Below, piece by piece: positions 11,550 through 59,254 of a stretch of DNA of 64,000 nucleotides (position 1 is the first letter of the stretch; each line of letters begins with the position of its first letter). A program made the position numbers and the translations under genes. The DNA lies in NCBI RefSeq assembly GCF_020520425.1, contig NC_079491.1, forward strand, positions 37,665,027 through 37,729,026. Reading direction: 5' to 3'. The notes under the pieces were generated by a model. That model ran no database searches and was not told the DNA's origin. It saw only the letters and a program-made list of their open reading frames with translations. This stretch comes from Spinacia oleracea (Eukaryota > Streptophyta > Magnoliopsida > Caryophyllales > Amaranthaceae).

Positions 11550-11679
11550 GAGCGATTTCCGTCAATAATGCACAAAGATAAGTTAATTCCCAAAATACGT
11601 TACTTTTTTTGTTAATTCCCACCATACCGTCCACGTCAGCATAGTGAACCGGTCTTTTTTTTTTAAATAAGCGGCGCAA

Positions 11680-11803
11680 AACCGCTATCTGAGATAGCGG
11701 TTCATGGGGGTTAACCGCTATCTGAGATAGCGGTTCCTGTTTAATGAACCGCCATCTCAGATAGCGGTTCCTATTTAATGAACCGCCATCTCAGATAGCG
11801 GTT
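11680..11803. repeat. Left subterminal palindrome cluster of MULE copy 1
   Basis: There are four near-copies of a 23-bp palindrome with arms AACCGCTATCT/AGATAGCGGTT around one central base, starting at 11680, 11713, 11747 and 11781 (33-34-bp spacing). Each could form a hairpin or bind a dimeric protein. A matching cluster lies near the right end (14253-14380). Confidence 0.9.
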
Positions 11804-12609
11804 TACCACTTATCACTTACCTCCAGGAAGCAAATTCAAAAAATCAAAAGCACAAAAAAAACCCCGCTTTGTTCTGCGTCTCTCTCTCTGTCTCCGTCGT
11901 CCTGCGGTTAACCCGTCGTCGTCCCTGTTTCTCTCTCCACCGGCCGGCTCGCCGTTAGCCGACCTCATTCCTCGCCCTACCTCCGGCCGTCGCGTCGAGC
12001 CTCCTCACCCACAACGGATTCTCGAGTCTCTTTCTCACCCTTCTCCATCGTTCCTCCGTTTCGAAATTGTTCCTGAGCCCTTGCCGGCTGTCGGACCTCT
12101 TCCTCACCACCACTAGCCGTCGAGCCTCCTCATCAGCCACCAAAGCCGTCGAGCTTCTTTCTCACCCACCACCGGTCGTCGGTGGTTCGAAATCAGGTAA
12201 GCCCTAATTTTTTTTTGAATTAATATATTTGAAGCTAATTATTAATTCAGTAATAATCGTTGCTATGTTTAGGTTTGTTTGATGATGTTATTAGGAAGAT
12301 CATGCTTATGTTTGATTGATGAGTTTATGATATGATTACCCTGAATTAATTGTAATTTTTTTTATTGTTAACGTATATCTAACCGCTATTTGAGATAGCG
12401 ATGTTATGAATTATATTATTTTAAAGTGATTATGCTGTGATTTTTATTTTTTTGAATTATTTCTGATCTTTGATTCGTTTTAAGCTCTTGAGTTTTTCAA
12501 TTTGGAATTTTAGTCTTCAATTTTTCAAGTTCAATTGAATTGAAATCAGATTATGATGGCCCAAATTAGGGATTTCATATTATTAATCATATTATTTTTT
12601 GTTTAGAAT

Positions 12610-13167
12610 ATGGAGTTGCCAGACTATCCTATTTATTGTCATTGGGGAGGGGAAATTTTGCAAAGTAGCGGTGATGTTACATATAAAGGAGGAGAGCGAA
12701 AATTTGGGTTTGTCAATTGTCAAATGAGTTATGATGAGGTTTTGAGTAAGGTTTATGATCTTATGAGATGTGACTCGAGATATGTGGAGTTGAAGCTACT
12801 AATGAGGTATCCAATGATGTCCGGTTCATATGAAGCCATTCCGTTGGATGATGACAATTCTTTAAAAGCAATGTTGATTGCTATGTCTCAAACACAATCA
12901 ACCACAATGCAATTGTTCATCGAGCAACATCCAAAGCAACCCGAAACTCAATCCCACTTGGAATCCTTTCATGAAATGGATTCATGGGCGAGTCCATTTC
13001 CCTACTTGCCCTTGACAAATCAAAGTGGGTTAACGGGTTCATTCACAAGAATGCTTACGGATGAACAATATGCTAGTGAACAATATGCAAATATGTGGAG
13101 GAGTGGCGTGATCGTGAGAGTCGGATTGTTCAAGGCACTCCTTTTGCCGGTCATCGTGAGAGGATGA
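12610..13167 (+). pseudogene. Truncated MULE transposase frame joined to PMD gene tail
   Basis: The first 157 or so codons equal the N-terminus of the full transposase at 52692, including the PB1-like domain. At the deletion junction (13083-13086) the frame enters PMD exon 3 sequence out of frame and stops at 13167. One coding difference from the long copy is His for Leu (CAT/CTT) near 12930. The 5' UTR intron (12197-12606) is kept. No catalytic domain remains. Confidence 0.85.
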
Positions 13168-13905
13168 AGGAGTATATGGATTGGTATTGTAGCATCACGA
13201 GACTCCTCATTACTCCTGTTACACGATCACCCCCCACCACTCATTATCAGCCGTCTTCCTCTGATATTATTTTGGTAAATTAATCCTTGTTCCATTTTCA
13301 TGTATAATGTTTATATTCATAACTAATGTTGAATTCTAATTATTGTTTCACATTCTTTTTTGTAGTCACATGCATTGGCTGATCTTGCCTCAAGATGCAC
13401 TCGAGCTGTGGATTCTGCGTTAGAGTTACCTCCCAGTTTGGCCCTTCCTCTCACTCTTGATACGTTACGCAATTTGAGTTCCTCTTGCATTGAGACCTTA
13501 TCAAGAGTGGGGCAAGAACATATCCTCCAACAATATGATTTAGCCTCGTCTCAGTGTACACCCGACACCTCCACCTCACATGTTTCTCGAGGGCGTGGTT
13601 TTCGACCACCACGTGCACGCCCTCCACCACTTACTCCTCCTCTACGCCCTCTAGCACTTACTTCTCCACACCCTCCACCACCACCTTCTCCACGCCCTCC
13701 ACCACCACCTTCTCCACGCCCTCCACCTCTTACTCCTCCTGCATCTCCGCCAGCATCACAAGTTATTTCATCTCCTCCTTTGCAGCTTCTCACTTACCGG
13801 CGACAAAAGGGTTGCTCTCCTAGTCAACGTCCCGAGCCAATTGCCGAGGAGGATGAGTCCTCATTTTCATCGTCCGAGCATTCAAAGAAACAACGTAGAA
13901 CTTAG
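13087..13905 (+). pseudogene. Retained 3' end of the PMD gene in MULE copy 1
   Basis: The region matches part of PMD exon 3 (13087-13274), an intron (13275-13365, GTAAAT...TTGTAG) and exon 4 (13366-13905) of the long copy. It encodes the tail, not the PMD core. The last exon is proline-rich (PPPPPSPRPPPPPSPRPP type) and ends in acidic/serine then basic residues. Exon 3 here reads EEWRDRESRI, whereas the long copy has a TAG in place of the W codon. Confidence 0.75.
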
Positions 13906-14526
13906 ATTTGAGCTACATTAGAAATTTTGTGTAATCTTTTGTTCTTTTTGCTAGTATTGGAACTTTTAGAACTTTTAGAAACTCATGTGTCATTATTGGA
14001 ACGATTGAACTTTTGGAAATTTTTTGTTTGCACTCTTCTATTTTGTTGCATAAGTGTTATGGTTTGGTTGGTTGGTATGATTTGTGGAGGTTGTTGGAGT
14101 TGGATTACAGACGTTGGAGTTGGATTATAGACGTTGTTGGAGATCTTGGATTTGTTTACAGGTTGTTGGAGTTGGACTATTTGGCAGAAGATCTCAGCCC
14201 ATTTTCTGGCTGAACACTGGAAACTGCAAGCTTGGATGCAGGGGGCATTATGAACCGCTAACTGAGATAGCGGTTTGGTTTTGAACTAAACCGCTATCTC
14301 AGAATGCGGTTAAGTAATATAAACCGCATTCTGAGATAGCGGTTTAGTTCTAAATCAAACCGCTATCTCAGATAGCGGTTTAGTGTTGAACCGGAAAAAA
14401 AAAAATTAGTTTTCTCTCTCCCTTGCTGACGTGGACGGTATGGTGGGAATTAACAAAAAAAAAGTAACGTATTTTGGGAATTAACTTATCTTTGTGCAAT
14501 ATTGACGGAAATCGCTCAAACCTGCA

Positions 14527-51620: not shown

Positions 51621-51629
51621 GAAACAAAC
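51621..51629. repeat. 9-bp target duplication, left of MULE copy 2
   Basis: GAAACAAAC precedes the left TIR and is repeated exactly at 59246-59254 after the right TIR. Confidence 0.95.
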
Positions 51630-51761
51630 GAGCGATTTCCGTCAATAATGCACAAAGATAAGTTAATTCCCAAAATACGTTACTTTTTTTGTTAATTCCC
51701 ACCATACCGTCCACGTCAGCATAGTGAACCGGTCTTTTTTTTTTTTAAATAAGCACCGCAA

Positions 51762-51885
51762 AACCGCTATCTGAGATAGCGGTTCATGGGGGTTAACCGC
51801 TATCTAAGTTAGCGGTTCCTGTTTAATGAACCGCCATCTCAGATAGCGGTTCCTGTTTAATGAACCGCTATCTCAGATAGCGGTT
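51762..51885. repeat. Left subterminal palindrome cluster of MULE copy 2
   Basis: There are four near-copies of the 23-bp palindrome (arms AACCGCTATCT/AGATAGCGGTT) at 51762, 51795, 51829 and 51863. The second is degraded (CTAAGTTAG centre). One partial copy also lies in the 5' UTR intron near 52462. Confidence 0.9.
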
Positions 51886-52278
51886 TACCACTTATCACTT
51901 ACCTCCAGGAAGCAAATTCAAAAAATCAAAAGCACAAAAAAAACCCCGCTTTGTTCTGCGTCTCTCTCTCTGTCTCCGTCGTCCTGCGGTTAACCCGCCG
52001 TCGTCCCTGTTTCTCTCTCCACCGGCCGGCTCGCCGTTAGCCGACCTCATTCCTCGCCCTACCTCCGGCCGTCGCGTCGAGCCTCCTCACCCACAACGGA
52101 TTCTCGAGTCTCTTTCTCACCCTTCTCCATCGTTCCTCCGTTTCGAAATTGTTCATCAGCCCTTGCCGGCTGTCGGACCTCTTCCTCACCACCACTAGCC
52201 GTCGAGCCTCCTCATCAGCCACCAAAGCCGTCGAGCTTCTTTCTCACCCACCACCGGTCGTCGGTGGTTCGAAATCAG

Positions 52279-52688
52279 GTAAGCCCTAATTTTTTTTTGA
52301 ATTAATATATTTGAAGCTAATTATTAATTCAGTAATAATCGTTGCTATGTTTAGGTTTGTTTGATGATGTTATTAGGAAGATCATGCTTATGTTTGATTG
52401 ATGAGTTTATGATATGATTACCCTGAATTAATTGTAATTTTTTTTATTGTTAACGTATATCTAACCGCTATTTGAGATAGCGATGTTATGAATTATATTA
52501 TTTTAAAGTGATTATGCTGTGATTTTTATTTTTTTGAATTATTTCTGATCTTTGATTCGTTTTAAGCTCTTGAGTTTTTCAATTTGGAATTTTAGTCTTC
52601 AATTTTTCAAGTTCAATTGAATTGAAATCAGATTATGATGGCCCAAATTAGGGATTTCATATTATTAATCATATTATTTTTTGTTTAG
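52279..52688 (+). other. 5' UTR intron of the MULE transposase gene
   Basis: The donor CAG/GTAAGCCC and acceptor TTGTTTAG/AATATGG flank a 410-bp T-rich intron placed just before the start codon. The upstream UTR is a C/T/G-rich, A-poor stretch (51950-52278). The same arrangement is kept in copy 1 (12197-12606). Confidence 0.75.
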
Positions 52689-52691
52689 AAT

Positions 52692-55256
52692 ATGGAGTTG
52701 CCAGACTATCCTATTTATTGTCATTGGGGAGGGGAAATTTTGCAAAGTAGCGGTGATGTTACATATAAAGGAGGAGAGCGAAAATTTGGGTTTGTCAATT
52801 GTCAAATGAGTTATGATGAGGTTTTGAGTAAGGTTTATGATCTTATGAGATGTGACTCGAGATATGTGGAGTTGAAGCTACTAATGAGGTATCCAATGAT
52901 GTCCGGTTCATATGAAGCCATTCCGTTGGATGATGACAATTCTTTAAAAGCAATGTTGATTGCTATGTCTCAAACACAATCAACCACAATGCAATTGTTC
53001 ATCGAGCAACTTCCAAAGCAACCCGAAACTCAATCCCACTTGGAATCCTTTCATGAAATGGATTCATGGGCGAGTCCATTTCCCTACTTGCCCTTGACAA
53101 ATCAAAGTGGGTTAACGGGTTCATTCACAAGAATGCTTACGGATGAACAATATGCTAGTGAACACATTTCAGAGCTCACTTCTCCAACTCAAACACCACA
53201 TGTAGAAGCTACAAATGGTGATCCATCTATGATACTTTTCGATTCTCTAGATCAAATATGTGTTGATTTTTTTGGAGATGAAGCGGTTGGGGTGGATAGT
53301 GATGTTGATGAAGATGAAGATACACAAGATGCTAATGACAAAGCTATAAGAGAAAGCGCTCCATCTCAAATTTTCAACAATGTTGCAGAGTTGGATCCGA
53401 TTTTGCTTGATTCTTGGAGGACTTGGTCCAACAACCACTCTTTCGATGGTGAATTTGCTATTGGGCAAGAGTTTGATTCTTTGGCACAATTGAAAGACAT
53501 AGTCAAAGGTTATTCCATAGCTAAAAATCATTCATTTAAGGTGTTGGAGAGTGAGCCCACAAAATACGTAGTTGAGTGTAAAAGAAAGAGTTCATGCAAA
53601 TGCTCATGGAGGATACGTGCAATCAAGGATCTTTGTCTTGCTTCATTCAGAATTGTGAGGTATAATGGCCCCCATGCAAGTAATTGTTTGGGTGACATAA
53701 ACTCAATCGATCATCCTCTTCTCTCCTCTGATTTTGTATGCAATGAGATAAAAGATCTTATTCGTGCCGATCCTTCTTTGAAAATCCGTGTTATTGTGCA
53801 AGCGGTGAAAGTCAAGTTTAAGTATACCATCACTTACAAGAGAGCTTGGTCAGCGAAACAAAAGGCTGTTGCAAGCATTTTTGGTGATTGGGAGCAATCT
53901 TACGAAGAGTTGCCTAGGTACATGCAAGCATTGAAAGAATCTAATCCAGGAACCGTCGTGGAATGGTGTACCTTGGCTTCTAATGAAGATCCTTCTGTTC
54001 ACATTTTTTTTAGAGTGTTTTGGGCATTCAAGCCTTCCATCGATGGTTTTAAGCACTGTCGACCCCTAATCACCATAGATGGAACTCATTTGTATGGTAA
54101 GTACAAGGGCACGTTACTCATAGCCATGGGTACAGATGCGAATTCTCAATTGTTCCCTCTTGCTTTTGCTATTGTTGAAAGTGAAAATGGTGAGAGTTGG
54201 AAATGGTTCATGAAATGCATTCGGCATTTAGTTACTCAGAGGGAAGGTTTATGTGTCATTTCTGATAGACATGCAGGGATTTTGCAAACAATGAATGAGG
54301 TCAATAGTGGGTGGGAGGAGCCGCGTGCCCACCATCGATTTTGTACTCGTCACCTTGCCTCTAATGTCAACACTCAGTTCAAGAATGCTTATGTGAAGAA
54401 CCTTTTCGGAAAAGCCGCAGATGCTCGTCAAAGAAAGAAGTTTGATTACTACTTGGGAAGAATTGGTGAATTGAATGTTGAAGCTCATAAGTACTTGATG
54501 GATATTTCTTCTCATCGGTGGTCGATCCACCATGATGGTGGTTTTAGATATGGCGTGAAAACCACAAACATGTCCGAAGCTTTTAATGGGGTGATGAAAG
54601 GTGCTCGTTGTTTTCCGATAACCGCCCTTGTTCGGATGACGTTTTACCGAGTGAACTCCTACTTTGTTATAAGACGAGGTTGGGGTAAAAGGAGAATTGA
54701 AGAAGGCCACGATTTCGTTGAGAAGGCCACAACAACAATTGAAATGAACATGGCAAAATCTGGTGCTCACGAGGTCCAAGCCTTTGATCATGGGATGGGG
54801 CTATTTGAGGTTACAACTGGACGAGGAGGCAGGGCTTCAGGTAAAGGTGGTAACGTACACACTGTTAACCTTGTAGCCAAAACTTGCACTTGTGAGAAAT
54901 TAAAAATCTACAAGTTGCCATGCTCCCATGTGCTTGCGGTTTGTCGTTCTCGCAGCTTATCTTATGCTGCTTTCGTTGATCCTTTCTTTACCACTGTCGA
55001 GTATAAGCAAACATACTTGAAGAGCTTTCATCCACTTCCTGATGTTCCCTATTGGCCTCATTATACTGGGGTGAGAATAGTTGCTGATGCTAGTAAACGG
55101 CGTGGTGTGGGACGCCCAAAGTCGTCTCGATACCCTAATGAGATGGATTCGAGTGCTCGACGCAGTGTCAATGTAAAATCATGTAGCATTTGTCGACGTC
55201 AAGGGCATAATAAGAAAACTTGTGCAGCTAGCGGTGGTGTTGGATCATCGGGGTAA
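52692..55256 (+). CDS. MULE transposase (MURA-type), 854 aa
   Basis: The enzyme cuts and joins the element ends in the nucleus. Domains in order: a PB1-like N-terminal domain (about 1-105), an acidic linker (about 185-215), a MuDR-type DNA-binding zinc region (about 255-340, with C-x-C and H-x5-C ligands in CKCSWRI and GPHASNC), the MULE DDE core with D463 (ITIDGTH), D525 (VISDRHAG) and E629 (NMSEAFNG), a SWIM zinc finger C732-x-C734-x10-C745-x-H747, and a C-terminal CCHC knuckle C831-x2-C834-x4-H839-x4-C844. All key residues are present in one unbroken frame. The start ATG follows a 5' UTR intron. The PMD gene begins 111 bp after the stop codon. Length and layout are normal for plant MULEs. 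Confidence 0.95.
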   Translation: MELPDYPIYCHWGGEILQSSGDVTYKGGERKFGFVNCQMSYDEVLSKVYDLMRCDSRYVELKLLMRYPMMSGSYEAIPLDDDNSLKAMLIAMSQTQSTTMQLFIEQLPKQPETQSHLESFHEMDSWASPFPYLPLTNQSGLTGSFTRMLTDEQYASEHISELTSPTQTPHVEATNGDPSMILFDSLDQICVDFFGDEAVGVDSDVDEDEDTQDANDKAIRESAPSQIFNNVAELDPILLDSWRTWSNNHSFDGEFAIGQEFDSLAQLKDIVKGYSIAKNHSFKVLESEPTKYVVECKRKSSCKCSWRIRAIKDLCLASFRIVRYNGPHASNCLGDINSIDHPLLSSDFVCNEIKDLIRADPSLKIRVIVQAVKVKFKYTITYKRAWSAKQKAVASIFGDWEQSYEELPRYMQALKESNPGTVVEWCTLASNEDPSVHIFFRVFWAFKPSIDGFKHCRPLITIDGTHLYGKYKGTLLIAMGTDANSQLFPLAFAIVESENGESWKWFMKCIRHLVTQREGLCVISDRHAGILQTMNEVNSGWEEPRAHHRFCTRHLASNVNTQFKNAYVKNLFGKAADARQRKKFDYYLGRIGELNVEAHKYLMDISSHRWSIHHDGGFRYGVKTTNMSEAFNGVMKGARCFPITALVRMTFYRVNSYFVIRRGWGKRRIEEGHDFVEKATTTIEMNMAKSGAHEVQAFDHGMGLFEVTTGRGGRASGKGGNVHTVNLVAKTCTCEKLKIYKLPCSHVLAVCRSRSLSYAAFVDPFFTTVEYKQTYLKSFHPLPDVPYWPHYTGVRIVADASKRRGVGRPKSSRYPNEMDSSARRSVNVKSCSICRRQGHNKKTCAASGGVGSSG

Positions 55257-55367
55257 TAAACTCAGTTTATGTTTCTCTTGATGTGTGATTCTAAGTTTAA
55301 TTTTTGTGCATATATTTCTTTTGACGTGTGATTTTACGATTTCTAATAAACTTCTTTTTCAGGTCTC
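55257..55367 (+). other. Gap between transposase and PMD frames, intron-like
   Basis: The gap begins just after GGG/GTAATAA and ends with a strong acceptor-like tract, ATTTCTAATAAACTTCTTTTTCAG, immediately before GTCTC-ATG. It is too short for an ordinary promoter. The nearest donor would join the two frames out of phase, so either another donor is used or the PMD ORF is expressed another way. Confidence 0.45.
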
Positions 55368-58300
55368 ATGGAGCCGACGATCCATCCCGGCCCACGTGAT
55401 ACTTCGGTTTTGACGTTGCAGACGGAGCATAGGAGTGAGGATGTTTGGGGAGGGGGTATGGACAGGCTTTTGACGTGTCGGGAGCACGTGCTTGGTTTAG
55501 GAGAGTGGGTGATACATGATCGAGTCTTGGAGTTTGTTAGATTAGCAGGGTTCTATGGTGTACATAGATTGGTTGGTGGTGGATTAGCCTTAGATAGGTC
55601 TTTGATCACAGCATTGATTGAGAGATGGAGACAGGAGACGCACACTTTTCATTTGGCTGTTGGTGAGGCTACTATTACTCTGCAGGATGTCGCTGTTTTG
55701 TTGGGGCTCAGAGTTCATGGGGCTCCTGTCACAGGGGATGGTACTGGGGTGTGGTCAGCTTTAGTCGAGGAGTTGTTAGGGATACGACCAGAGCCTGGTG
55801 ATGATGGAAAACCTGTTCTCCAGGGTTCATCATTGAGGATGACTTGGTTGAGGCGACACTTCAGTCAGGGCCCCCCTGATGACGCTGCTGATATTGTTTA
55901 TGAGAGGTTTAGCCGAGCATATATTCTTGCACTTATGGGGTCCATTTTGTTTGCTGATAAGAGCGGTGATGCCGTGCAGCTCGTCTACTTGCCATTGATT
56001 CGCGACTTGCGTAGAGCTGGGACATACAGCTGGGGGAGTGCGACCCTTGCTTATTTGTATCGACAGATGTGTCGAGCCGCTCGTAGACGATCCCGTGACA
56101 TTGGTGGTCCACTTATACTTCTGCAGTTATGGTCATGGGAGCATATTCACATTGGTCGTCCGAGGATTTCGAGAGTTCGCGATGCTCCACCTCCTGACCC
56201 AGAGCATCCTATTGAGGTCGACGATCCATCTATTCTTGGTACTCAGCATCAGCGTGGAGTGGACCCCTTAGCATGCAGGTAACTTATTTGTTTAACTACT
56301 CATTACTACTTCGATAAATCAAGTAATTTGTTAACACTTTACTTTACTAACACTTTACTTTACTTGTTTTGTTAGTTGGCTTAGGGTTCACTTTTCATGT
56401 GGCCATACAGCTAGTGGACTCTCTTTCTTTAGGGATGCACTTGACCATCAAAAGGAGACACAGGTATTTAATATCTCACCTTACTAATTACTCAAATGCT
56501 TCTTTTGTTTCAAGTTAGGTCAACTTTGGTCAATTTTTGTCAATGTAGGTGCATTAAAGTCAACTAGTTCAACTTTGGTCTAAATTGTCAATTTAAGTCA
56601 ACTTTGGTCTAAATTGTCAATTTAAGTCAACTTTGGTCTAAATTGTGATTAATTCAAGTTAAAAGCATAAAATGACCTAAATTCAACTAAAATAGCATAA
56701 ATTGACCTAAATTCAACTAAAATAGCCTAAATTCAATTAGTTAGGTCAACTTTGGTCAATTTAAGTCAACTTTGGTAAACTTTGGTCTAAATTGTGATTA
56801 ATTCAACTAAAAAACCATAAAATGACCTAAATTCAACTAATATAGCATAAATTGACCTAAATTCAACTAAAATTGCCTAAATTCAACTAGTTAGGTCAAC
56901 TTCGGTCAATTTAAGTCAACATTGGTCAACTTTGGTCTAAATTGTGATTAATTCAACTAGTTAGGTCAACTTAGGTCAATTAAGTCAACGAACGTCAATT
57001 TGAGCTCCCTCGATTCTACTTAGATAAAGTTATGTTAATTTAGGTTAATTTAGGTAAATTTGTGCTATTTTTGTCTTAAATAGCCTACATTCACCAAAAA
57101 TTGTCTAAAAATTCCCTTAATTCACCAAAAATTGCCTAAAAAGGCTAAAATCGCATAAAATAGCTTCAATTCACCTTAATTAGCCTAAATCCACCAAACA
57201 TAGCATAAAAAGGCCTAAACTAGCTTAAATTCACCTAACATAGTCTAGAATAGCTTGGATTCACCTAAAATAGGCTAAAATAGCTTAAATTCACCTAAAA
57301 TGGCATATAATAGCTTAAATTCACCAAAGATTGCCTAAAAAGGCTTAAGTTCGCCTAAAATGGCCTAAAATCGCCTTAAATAGCTTCAATTCACCTTAAT
57401 TAGCCTAAATCCACCAAAAATAGCCTAAATACACCTAAACACGCTTAAGTTCACCTAACATAGTCTATAATAGCTTAAAATCACACCTAAAGGCTTAAAT
57501 TCACCTAGAATTGTCCAAAATAGCCTAAAATTGCTTAATTTCACCTAAAATTGCCTAAATACTCACTTTTTACTTATTGTAGATGACTTGGCAGCCATAT
57601 TCAGAGACGGTACTTGGTTTACTACCCGAGATTTGTAGATGTGATAGAGATATATGGCGCTCAGTTGTACCGTTGATTTGCTTTGACATTGTTGAGTACC
57701 ACTACCCAAATCGAGTGATGCGTCAGTTTGGATTGGAACAGTCAGTTCCCGTTGCGTGTGACACGAGTGTTGATCTTCATTATGTGGATCGACGGCATAA
57801 AAACAAGAAGTTTGAAGAGATGCATCGCAAATATGTGGAGGAGTAGCGTGATCGTGAGAGTCGGATTGTTCAAGGCACTCCTTTTGCCGGTCATCGTGAG
57901 AGGATGAAGGAGTATATGGATTGGTATTGTAGCATCACGAGACTCCTCATTACTCCTGTTACACGATCACCCCCCACCACTCATTATCAGCCGTCTTCCT
58001 CTGATATTATTTTGGTAAATTAATCCTTGTTCCATTTTCATGTATAATGTTTATATTCATAACTAATGTTGAATTCTAATTATTGTTTCACATTCTTTTT
58101 TGTAGTCACATGCATTGGCTGATCTTGCCTCAAGATGCACTCGAGCTGTGGATTCTGCGTTAGAGTTACCTCCCAGTTTGGCCCTTCCTCTCACTCTTGA
58201 TACGTTACGCAATTTGAGTTCTTCTTGCATTGAGACCTTATCAAGAGTGGGGCAAGAACATATCCTCCAACAATATGATTTAGCCTCGTCTCAGTGTACA

Positions 58301-58645
58301 CCCGACACCTCCACCTCACATGTTTCTCGAGGGCGTGGTTTTCGACCACCACGTGCACGCCCTCCACCACTTACTCCTCCTCTACGCCCTCTAGAACTTA
58401 CTTCTCCACACCCTCCACCACCACCTTCTCCACGCCCTCCACCACCACCTTCTCCACGCCCTCCACCTCTTACTCCTCCTGTATCTCCGCCAGCATCACA
58501 AGTTATTTCATCTCCTCCTTTGCAGCTTCTCACTTACCGGCGACAAAAGGGTTGCTCTCCTAGTCAACGTCCCGAGCCAATTGCCGAGGAGGATGAGTCC
58601 TCATTTTCATCGTCTGAGCATTCAAAGAAACAACGTAGAACTTAG
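55368..58645 (+). CDS. Plant mobile domain (PMD) protein carried by the MULE
   Basis: PMD is found in the host proteins MAIN and MAIL1-3 and in several plant transposons; its biochemical role is unclear. Exons with consistent phase are 55368-56278, 56376-56463, 57583-58014 and 58106-58645, 656 codons in all. The domain spans about residues 35-405: HVLGLGEWVIHDRVLEFVRL, LITALIERWRQETHTFHLAV, VAVLLGLRVHG, then SFFRDALDHQ, MTWQPY, DIWRSVVPLICFDIVEYHYP and RVMRQFGLEQ. A proline-rich tail follows. Codon 421 is TAG (57844-57846), where copy 1 has TGG, so this copy would end after the PMD core and lose the 236-residue tail. The 1.1-kb third intron is a degenerate repeat array. Exons were placed by eye. 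Confidence 0.85.
56464..57582 (+). repeat. Intron of the PMD gene filled with degenerate short repeats
   Basis: Almost the whole 1119-bp intron consists of short words repeated with variation. From 56520 to 57000 these are mainly AGGTCAACTTTGGTC and CTAAATTCAACTAAAATAGC; from 57060 to 57570 mainly TTCACCTAAAATAGCYTAAA. The CCTAAA core recurs dozens of times. It resembles an expanded minisatellite rather than unique intron sequence. Confidence 0.8.
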
Positions 58646-58983
58646 ATTTGAGCTACATTAGAAATTTTGTGTAATCTTTTGTTCTTTTTGCTAGTATTGG
58701 AACTTTTAGAAACTCATGTGTCATTATTGGACCGATTGAACTTTTGGAAATTTTTTGTTTGCACTCTTCTATTTTGTTGCATAAGTGTTATGGTTTGGTT
58801 GGTTGGTATGATTTGTGGAGGTTGTTGGAGTTGGATTACAGACGTTGGAGTTGGATTATAGACGTTGTTGGAGATCTTGGATTTGTTTACAGGTTGTTGG
58901 AGTTGGACTATTTGGCAGAAGATCTCAGCCCATTTTCTGGCTGAACACTGGAAACTGCAAGCTTGGATGCAGGGGGCATTATG

Positions 58984-59111
58984 AACCGCTATCTGAGATA
59001 GCGGTTTGGTTTTGAACTAAACCGCTATCTCAGAATGCGGTTAAGTAGTATAAACCGCATTCTGAGATAGCGGTTTAGTTCTAAATCAAACCGCTATCTC
59101 AGATAGCGGTT
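58984..59111. repeat. Right subterminal palindrome cluster of MULE copy 2
   Basis: There are four copies at 58984, 59019, 59053 and 59089. The two middle ones share an AATGCGG/CCGCATT variant and are inverse to each other, so the pair could itself fold into one long hairpin. Confidence 0.9.
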
Positions 59112-59254
59112 TAGTGTTGAACCGGAAAAAAAAAATTATTTTTCTCTCTCCCTTGCTGACGTGGACGGTATGGTGGGAATTAACAAAAAAAGTAACGTAT
59201 TTTGGGAATTAACTTATCTTTGTGCAATATTGACGGAAATCGCTCGAAACAAAC

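Follow-up and report, generated by a model that had tools for sequence, protein, structure and literature searches.

A plant mobile domain gene as a probable accessory of a Mutator-like element family in spinach

Mutator-like elements (MULEs) that carry a plant mobile domain (PMD) are known from grasses and Amborella, where the PMD is reported to be fused to the transposase and, in the portion of that work drawn on here, a use of the MULE-borne domain against silencing is suggested (Ikeda et al. 2017, PMC5418596); an excerpt of a further source (PMC9289625) names Babu et al. 2006 for the PMD-MULE association itself. Here we describe a complete MULE of spinach, Spinacia oleracea, and the family to which it belongs, starting from a stretch of 64,000 nucleotides (assembly GCF_020520425.1, contig NC_079491.1, positions 37,665,027 to 37,729,026, forward strand), referred to at its full length as the window. 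Like the grass and Amborella elements, as far as the cited extracts describe them, the family pairs a MULE transposase with a PMD that probably derives from a captured host gene and may belong with the MAIN/MAIL proteins, but here the PMD is encoded by a separate, overlapping gene, the host is a eudicot, and selection on the PMD has been measured.

Partial parallels are offered by other two-gene transposons, each compared here through excerpts of its literature. VANDAL21 and VANDAL6 with their VANC proteins (PMC5735166, PMC10398659) are likewise MULEs with an extra gene; tandem repeats that differ from copy to copy occur in their non-coding regions, among them an intron of that gene, and the encoded protein itself has tandem peptide repeats. 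In VANDAL21, VANC binds motifs within tandem repeats that lie 5' of the transposase gene and inside introns (PMC5735166). The spinach family also has copy-variable non-coding motif arrays, in intron 2 of its PMD gene and at its ends, whereas VANC is a different protein family, VANDAL TIRs (terminal inverted repeats) are degenerate, and anti-silencing is experimental there and conjectural here. In Spm/En, a CACTA element encoding TNPA and TNPD, the large transposase open reading frame (ORF) lies inside intron 1 of the tnpA transcript (PMC2613891), much as the transposase ORF would lie within the first intron of the second product here, and repeats just inside both ends and derivatives retaining the ends are further likenesses; Spm/En nevertheless belongs to another superfamily, TNPA is not a PMD protein, and splicing and binding are demonstrated there and predicted here. 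KI-MULEs with a ULP1-like protease (PMC13317346, PMC2528002) similarly keep a conserved captured host domain as an extra gene, but the domain is another one and is encoded on the strand opposite the transposase, and KI-MULEs are of the non-TIR kind. Among the entries listed in our literature search, PMD-MULEs appear solely in contexts already described and this family does not appear; it may nonetheless be recorded in Repbase or reported in a publication elsewhere. The family is young and multi-copy, has two genes, and bears a measured signature of selection on a transposon PMD; candidate target sites stand at both ends, probable short derivatives would act as natural targets, and a single genome contains copies whose PMD is open alongside copies whose PMD is not, making the role of the PMD directly testable via RNA, binding and methylation.

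A PMD gene kept beside the transposase

The element and its two coding regions are laid out as follows.

51621-51629: left target-site duplication GAAACAAAC, matching the right one at 9/9 positions
51630-59245, plus strand: complete MULE of 7,616 bp, with TIRs and duplication at both ends
51630-51721, plus strand: left TIR, 92 bp, from inverted-arm comparison and element-end check
52692-55256, plus strand: transposase ORF, 854 amino acids (aa), with MULE DDE residues D463, D525 and E629, SWIM and CCHC
55368-56278, plus strand: PMD gene exon 1 (PF10536, copy alignment, spliced frame)
56376-56463, plus strand: PMD gene exon 2 (copy alignment, spliced frame)
56464-57582, plus strand: PMD intron 2, with an array of 10-bp period (repeat analysis, copy comparison)
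57583-58014, plus strand: PMD gene exon 3 (PF10536, copy alignment, spliced frame)
57844-57846, plus strand: private in-frame stop in PMD exon 3, codon 421 of 656 (spliced frame, copy alignment)
58106-58645, plus strand: PMD gene exon 4, encoding a proline-rich peptide with tandem repeats
59154-59245, minus strand: right TIR, 92 bp, from the same two comparisons
59246-59254: right target-site duplication GAAACAAAC, matching the left one at 9/9 positions

MULE target-site duplications are about 9 bp long. The inverted arms at 51629-51721 and 59154-59246 are 99% identical, giving 92-bp TIRs with one mismatch, and the same 9-bp word flanks both, which bears out the preliminary description of a full-length MULE with perfect duplication; long TIRs, a duplication of ~9 bp and a MuDR-type DDE transposase with the MULE domain place the element among MULEs. 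Pfam recognized MULE, DBD_Tnp_Mut and SWIM in the transposase ORF (PF10551, E = 1.2e-20; PF03108, E = 1e-11), and the three catalytic residues were located together with a SWIM motif at 732 and a CCHC motif at 831. PF10536 matches on the same strand (exon 1, E = 1.2e-57; exon 3, E = 1.4e-18) mark a PMD encoded inside the MULE, as in the elements described by Ikeda et al. 2017; Pfam gave PMD alone for the second gene, hence no VANC protein, and exon 4 by itself matched no family. The four-exon model has GT/AG ends and continuous phase and comprises 656 codons in intact copies, its intron GT and AG being unchanged wherever aligned, with the exception of locus L023, where the exon 1-2 region is rearranged.

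The wider family was sought in 894,210,420 bases of the genome (242 contigs). There are ~40 left ends, of which 26 were looked at; 24 family loci and two window copies were considered, and 20 copies were aligned, L010, L017, L020, L024, L025 and L027 being left outside the alignment as elements that extend beyond their stretch or are too truncated or rearranged. Codon 421, a stop within the PMD domain here, is a sense codon in 19/19 other aligned copies, and because of this private stop the window copy is no source of a full PMD protein, though its gene belongs to the family. Of the earlier claim of a four-exon PMD gene on the transposase strand inside the TIRs, the exon model thus stands, with the frame of this copy interrupted. 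Elsewhere, a search proposed earlier for copies with both ORFs found both genes open in 7/20 aligned copies; four have an open transposase with a broken PMD (the window copy, L022, L023 and L037), in two the PMD is open but the transposase incomplete (L012 and L013), and in seven neither is complete.

Synteny was counted over transposase matches ending at residue 845 or beyond (25 of 57 in the genome), and PMD exon 1 follows directly downstream on the same strand in 22 of them. The gap, in full codons, is 97-114 bp in 21 pairs and 83 bp in one whose PMD match starts inside the exon, and 4/22 pairs belong to relatives with 64-71% transposase identity. The three exceptions comprise a match without exon 1, a copy whose PMD lies 24 kb further on, probably through nested insertion, and a relative with 53% identity.

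Selection was compared between two family copies and L029, L031 and L032, which form one related family. The nonsynonymous-to-synonymous rate ratio (dN/dS), rough here as dS is near saturation (proportion of synonymous differences, pS, about 0.7), is 0.11-0.14 for the transposase (546-733 codons) and 0.13-0.19 for the PMD (133-620 codons), and with L015 as query it is 0.11-0.15 for PMD exons 1-2 and 0.19-0.25 for exons 3-4. The corresponding proportions of nonsynonymous (pN) and synonymous differences are 0.19-0.22/0.69-0.70 for the transposase and 0.21-0.28/0.67-0.71 for the PMD; since neutrality would bring pN near pS, the PMD does not behave as a neutral passenger. Judged from these comparisons, this MULE lineage has the PMD as a stable component, on which purifying selection is nearly as strict as on the transposase, and because the gene was kept so strictly the element probably uses it. 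The preliminary description had taken the PMD protein for an accessory factor of the family, perhaps acting on silencing or integration, a view to be abandoned if other family members lacked the PMD or let it decay neutrally beside a constrained transposase; synteny and the between-family ratios, the latter taken for the PMD apart from the transposase as had been proposed, contradict such decay, and at the level of the family these sequence comparisons support the accessory reading well. Other counts lend it no support: among L029, L031 and L032 dN/dS is 0.81-0.98 for the transposase and 0.29-1.48 for the PMD, as expected of decaying copies, shared PMD changes within the family (5 nonsynonymous, 2 synonymous) are too few to show recent constraint, and in both genes the private changes appear neutral. 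Within-family counts were accordingly set aside as a test of recent selection, being too few to decide, and the within-family transposase set was chosen as open frames, so that its freedom from stops is no result.

Leader, palindromes and a proposed action on the ends

The non-coding features on which a role for the PMD may turn lie just inside the TIRs and upstream of the transposase ORF.

51762-51885: left array of four 23-bp palindromes (AACCGCTATCTSAGATAGCGGTT type, 34-bp period), from repeat and motif scan
51900-52278, plus strand: probable 5' leader exon, ~379 nt, with putative start and donor CAG|GTAAGC
52279-52688, plus strand: probable leader intron (13 ATGs in 52279-52691 of the window copy)
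52463-52485: degenerate ninth palindrome with 3 mismatches, inside the leader intron
58984-59111: right array of four 23-bp palindromes, from repeat and motif scan

The window holds 18 sites of the 23-bp palindrome, both family copies counted, against a chance expectation of 0; the genome has 1,648 places at no more than two mismatches (control 0) and 727 places of the conserved inner TIR motif at no more than one (control 0). The two were paired within 450 bp among the matches listed, which cover contig C1 up to 102.45 Mb. Among these, a perfect palindrome stands on the inner side of 29/46 TIR motifs and on the outer side of none, and 40/50 perfect palindromes lie at most 450 bp from a TIR motif. 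The same matches include seven inverted pairs of TIR motifs 546-630 bp apart (for example C1 23126232-23126859 and C1 67483265-67483895), most with palindromes inside; from their motif positions, these ~600-bp pairs are probable derivatives of the family of the miniature inverted-repeat transposable element (MITE) type. Among PMD-bearing relatives the palindrome comparison is confined to L031, the 3' ends of L029 and L032 being lost or replaced; this diverged locus keeps a related TIR and has five AACCGC/GCGGTT half-sites just inside its 3' end, while the PMD-less relatives have 0 (L030) and 1 (L033, with limits uncertain). The intron 2 array measures 294-1648 bp in 17/19 other copies and 166 bp in L009 and is absent from the deleted window copy; intron 2 of the diverged family has no array and two GGTCAACTTTG-like words near its start.

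The leader contains no ATG in 18/20 copies, and the intron that follows has 12-16. The simplest reading of this arrangement would be a shared leader, joined by splicing either to the transposase exon or directly to the PMD exon. A bacterial promoter scan of the leader was set aside as inapplicable.

We give roughly even chances to a reading in which this MULE family has two genes of its own, expressed by alternative splicing, with the PMD protein acting in trans on the element ends. One promoter and an ATG-poor leader exon would serve both products, the leader joined to the transposase exon yielding transposase and the leader joined directly to the PMD exon yielding the PMD protein, in the manner of TNPD and TNPA of Spm/En; the PMD protein would act in trans on both ends, directly or via a host partner of the MAIN/MAIL1-PP7L type, most likely at the 23-bp palindrome arrays, keeping the ends unsilenced, with a role as transposition cofactor at the palindromes a close second. 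The same pair of proteins would also mobilise short derivatives reduced to their ends and palindromes. We thus infer that the PMD protein may act on the element ends as an anti-silencing factor or as a transposition cofactor.

The alternative in which the PMD is purely a transposition cofactor like TNPA of Spm/En, binding the subterminal palindromes and helping to pair or cut the ends with no role in silencing, seems to us possible if doubtful. The arrays lie immediately inside both TIRs and are retained in deletion derivatives, and TNPA, in the excerpted account, binds subterminal repeats and is required for transposition (PMC2613891). Yet MAIN and MAIL1 are described, again in excerpts, as functioning in silencing and gene expression (PMC5418596, PMC7156037). 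A MULE relative without a PMD exists (L030). To our knowledge, moreover, no PMD has been published as a transposition factor.

Several observations weigh against the favoured two-gene reading. Among the matches listed, 17/46 ends have no perfect palindrome within 450 bp, and the palindromes could be transposase sites. Shuffling the leader yields no ATG in 4% of cases, so that the contrast with the intron is suggestive only; alternative splicing is read solely from splice-like sequences, and an AATAAA located between the two genes would allow for separate transcripts. The PMD is also broken in 4/11 copies with an open transposase, and for this reason it need not work in cis.

A bolder version, which we put forward tentatively and regard as rather unlikely in its entirety, is that the MULE lineage took up a silencing gene of the MAIN/MAIL type, overlapped it with its tail exon and turned it into an Spm-like spliced regulator that recognises the 23-bp palindromes, unsilencing and mobilising autonomous copies and probably hundreds of derivatives. 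If true, one stolen silencing protein would unsilence and mobilise autonomous copies and short derivatives genome-wide.

Joining of the transposase and PMD genes

The junction of the two genes contains two further probable features.

55253-55362, plus strand: probable intron, whose donor G|GTAATAA holds the stop of the ORF and whose acceptor is TTTTTCAG|GTCTC
55363-55399, plus strand: probable C-terminal tail of the transposase, GSHGADDPSRPT-stop, in a frame other than that of the PMD, whose start it overlaps

The transposase stop codon falls within a donor-like G|GTAA, and the acceptor lies immediately 5' of the PMD ATG, with 111 bp between stop and ATG. Because the stop overlaps the donor, the true transposase probably departs from the 854-aa ORF and would instead end in the spliced tail; of the intact 854-aa transposase reported earlier, the open ORF with its catalytic residues, SWIM and CCHC holds up, and the exact length of the product probably does not. 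The donor and acceptor pair recurs in L029, L031 and L032, with the stretch between them diverged, and the predicted tail there reads GSNGQSGPSS(L or I)GS-stop. As the PMD ATG lies 5-6 nt inside the tail exon in a different frame, the two predicted frames overlap without fusion. In the PMD-less relative L030 (3900-4120), too, the transposase stop holds a GT, and a short tail exon, with an ATG a few bases in, is preceded by an acceptor.

Instead of sharing the leader, the PMD might be transcribed separately from a promoter of its own, situated within or close to the 3' part of the transposase gene, the acceptor then serving only the tail exon; the short open tail of L030 means that the acceptor may predate the PMD, but the 111 bp from stop to ATG and an ATG 5 nt into the exon leave little room for a leader of its own, and we consider this rather improbable. 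Very unlikely is a single spliced fusion protein of transposase and PMD, as reported in excerpt for grasses and Amborella (Ikeda et al. 2017, PMC5418596): in its favour, the stop of the transposase lies in a donor-like site and an acceptor precedes the PMD, but the predicted join is out of frame here and in L029, L031 and L032, that is, in four sequences of two families, which contradicts it for these splice sites.

Origin of the PMD, age of the family and further observations

In the search with the MULE PMD, all matches listed are at least 57% identical except one of 42%, L040 at C1:98.015 Mb. Because none of the genome transposase matches lies near it, L040 is taken as a host gene, presumably of the MAIN/MAIL type. 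Aligned with MULE PMDs it shows 38-42% identity, compared with 20-25% for eight other PMD loci of the genome, and it shares with the MULE gene one intron at the same place and in phase 0, before a conserved xW, the other introns differing. This identity and common intron fit an ancient capture, as DNA, of a gene presumably of the MAIN/MAIL type, in line with Ikeda et al.; loci L001-L008, at 20-25% identity, were ruled out as its source. A passenger role for the PMD, as a captured host gene of the Pack-MULE sort with no use to the element, is highly improbable, for although MULEs often capture genes, L040 as nearest presumed host gene shows the likeness just given, and the PMD is broken in several copies, its position and order are unchanged in the relatives at 64-71% transposase identity and its between-family dN/dS already contradicts a capture evolving without constraint.

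The relatives L030 and L033 (~50% identity) gave no PMD by tblastn or hidden Markov model, with L029 as positive control; since they are without it, the PMD would have been either gained in this branch or lost in theirs. Closer relatives, at 81-90% identity, also occur in the genome, at C3:38707505, C5:118920878 and C1:110279407.

Perfect duplications of at least 9 bp flank 15/20 aligned copies (12/16 plus 3/4); of the remainder, one has a duplication with a mismatch and four have none. Nine close copies carry 0.05-0.32% private substitutions, and with a substitution rate near 7e-9 per site and year their age would be roughly 0.1-0.5 million years. The suggestion that the family may be recently active is borne out by these figures on that time scale, as a statement about past activity inferred from sequence.

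The second copy of the family in the window is internally deleted.

11550-14517, plus strand: same-family copy of 2,968 bp with its own perfect duplication

It lacks most of the transposase and all of PMD exons 1-2 and keeps palindromes and TIRs. In the complete element, window positions 51940-52688 differ from L022, L026, L036 and L037 by ~16% in the leader exon and ~7% in the leader intron, while the transposase of the same four copies differs by only 0.6-0.8%; as the leader divergence is far above that of the transposase, the 5' end of the window element looks as if it had been exchanged between elements. The left flank of the L019 copy (1-163) contains a related TIR-like end (77%), inverted.

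Neither structural approach to the PMD protein was retained: a single-sequence AlphaFold2 model of exon 1 was discarded (predicted local distance difference test score 35), and a search of solved structures returned weak Gag matches only (E 0.18-0.36) at residues 478-526, behind the PMD, which were taken as chance. Other PMD genes of the genome fall into further groups. Six of the excluded loci (L001, L004-L008) form a cluster of long single-frame PMD genes at C4 141.7-143.7 Mb, 20-25% identical to the MULE PMD and probably a host gene array. Another group, on several chromosomes, comprises 15 places with profile positions 2-347 nearly whole, 103-111 bits and frames of 561-703 aa, and one more covers profile 12-296 with stop codons in common; these may possibly be retrotransposon-borne PMDs.

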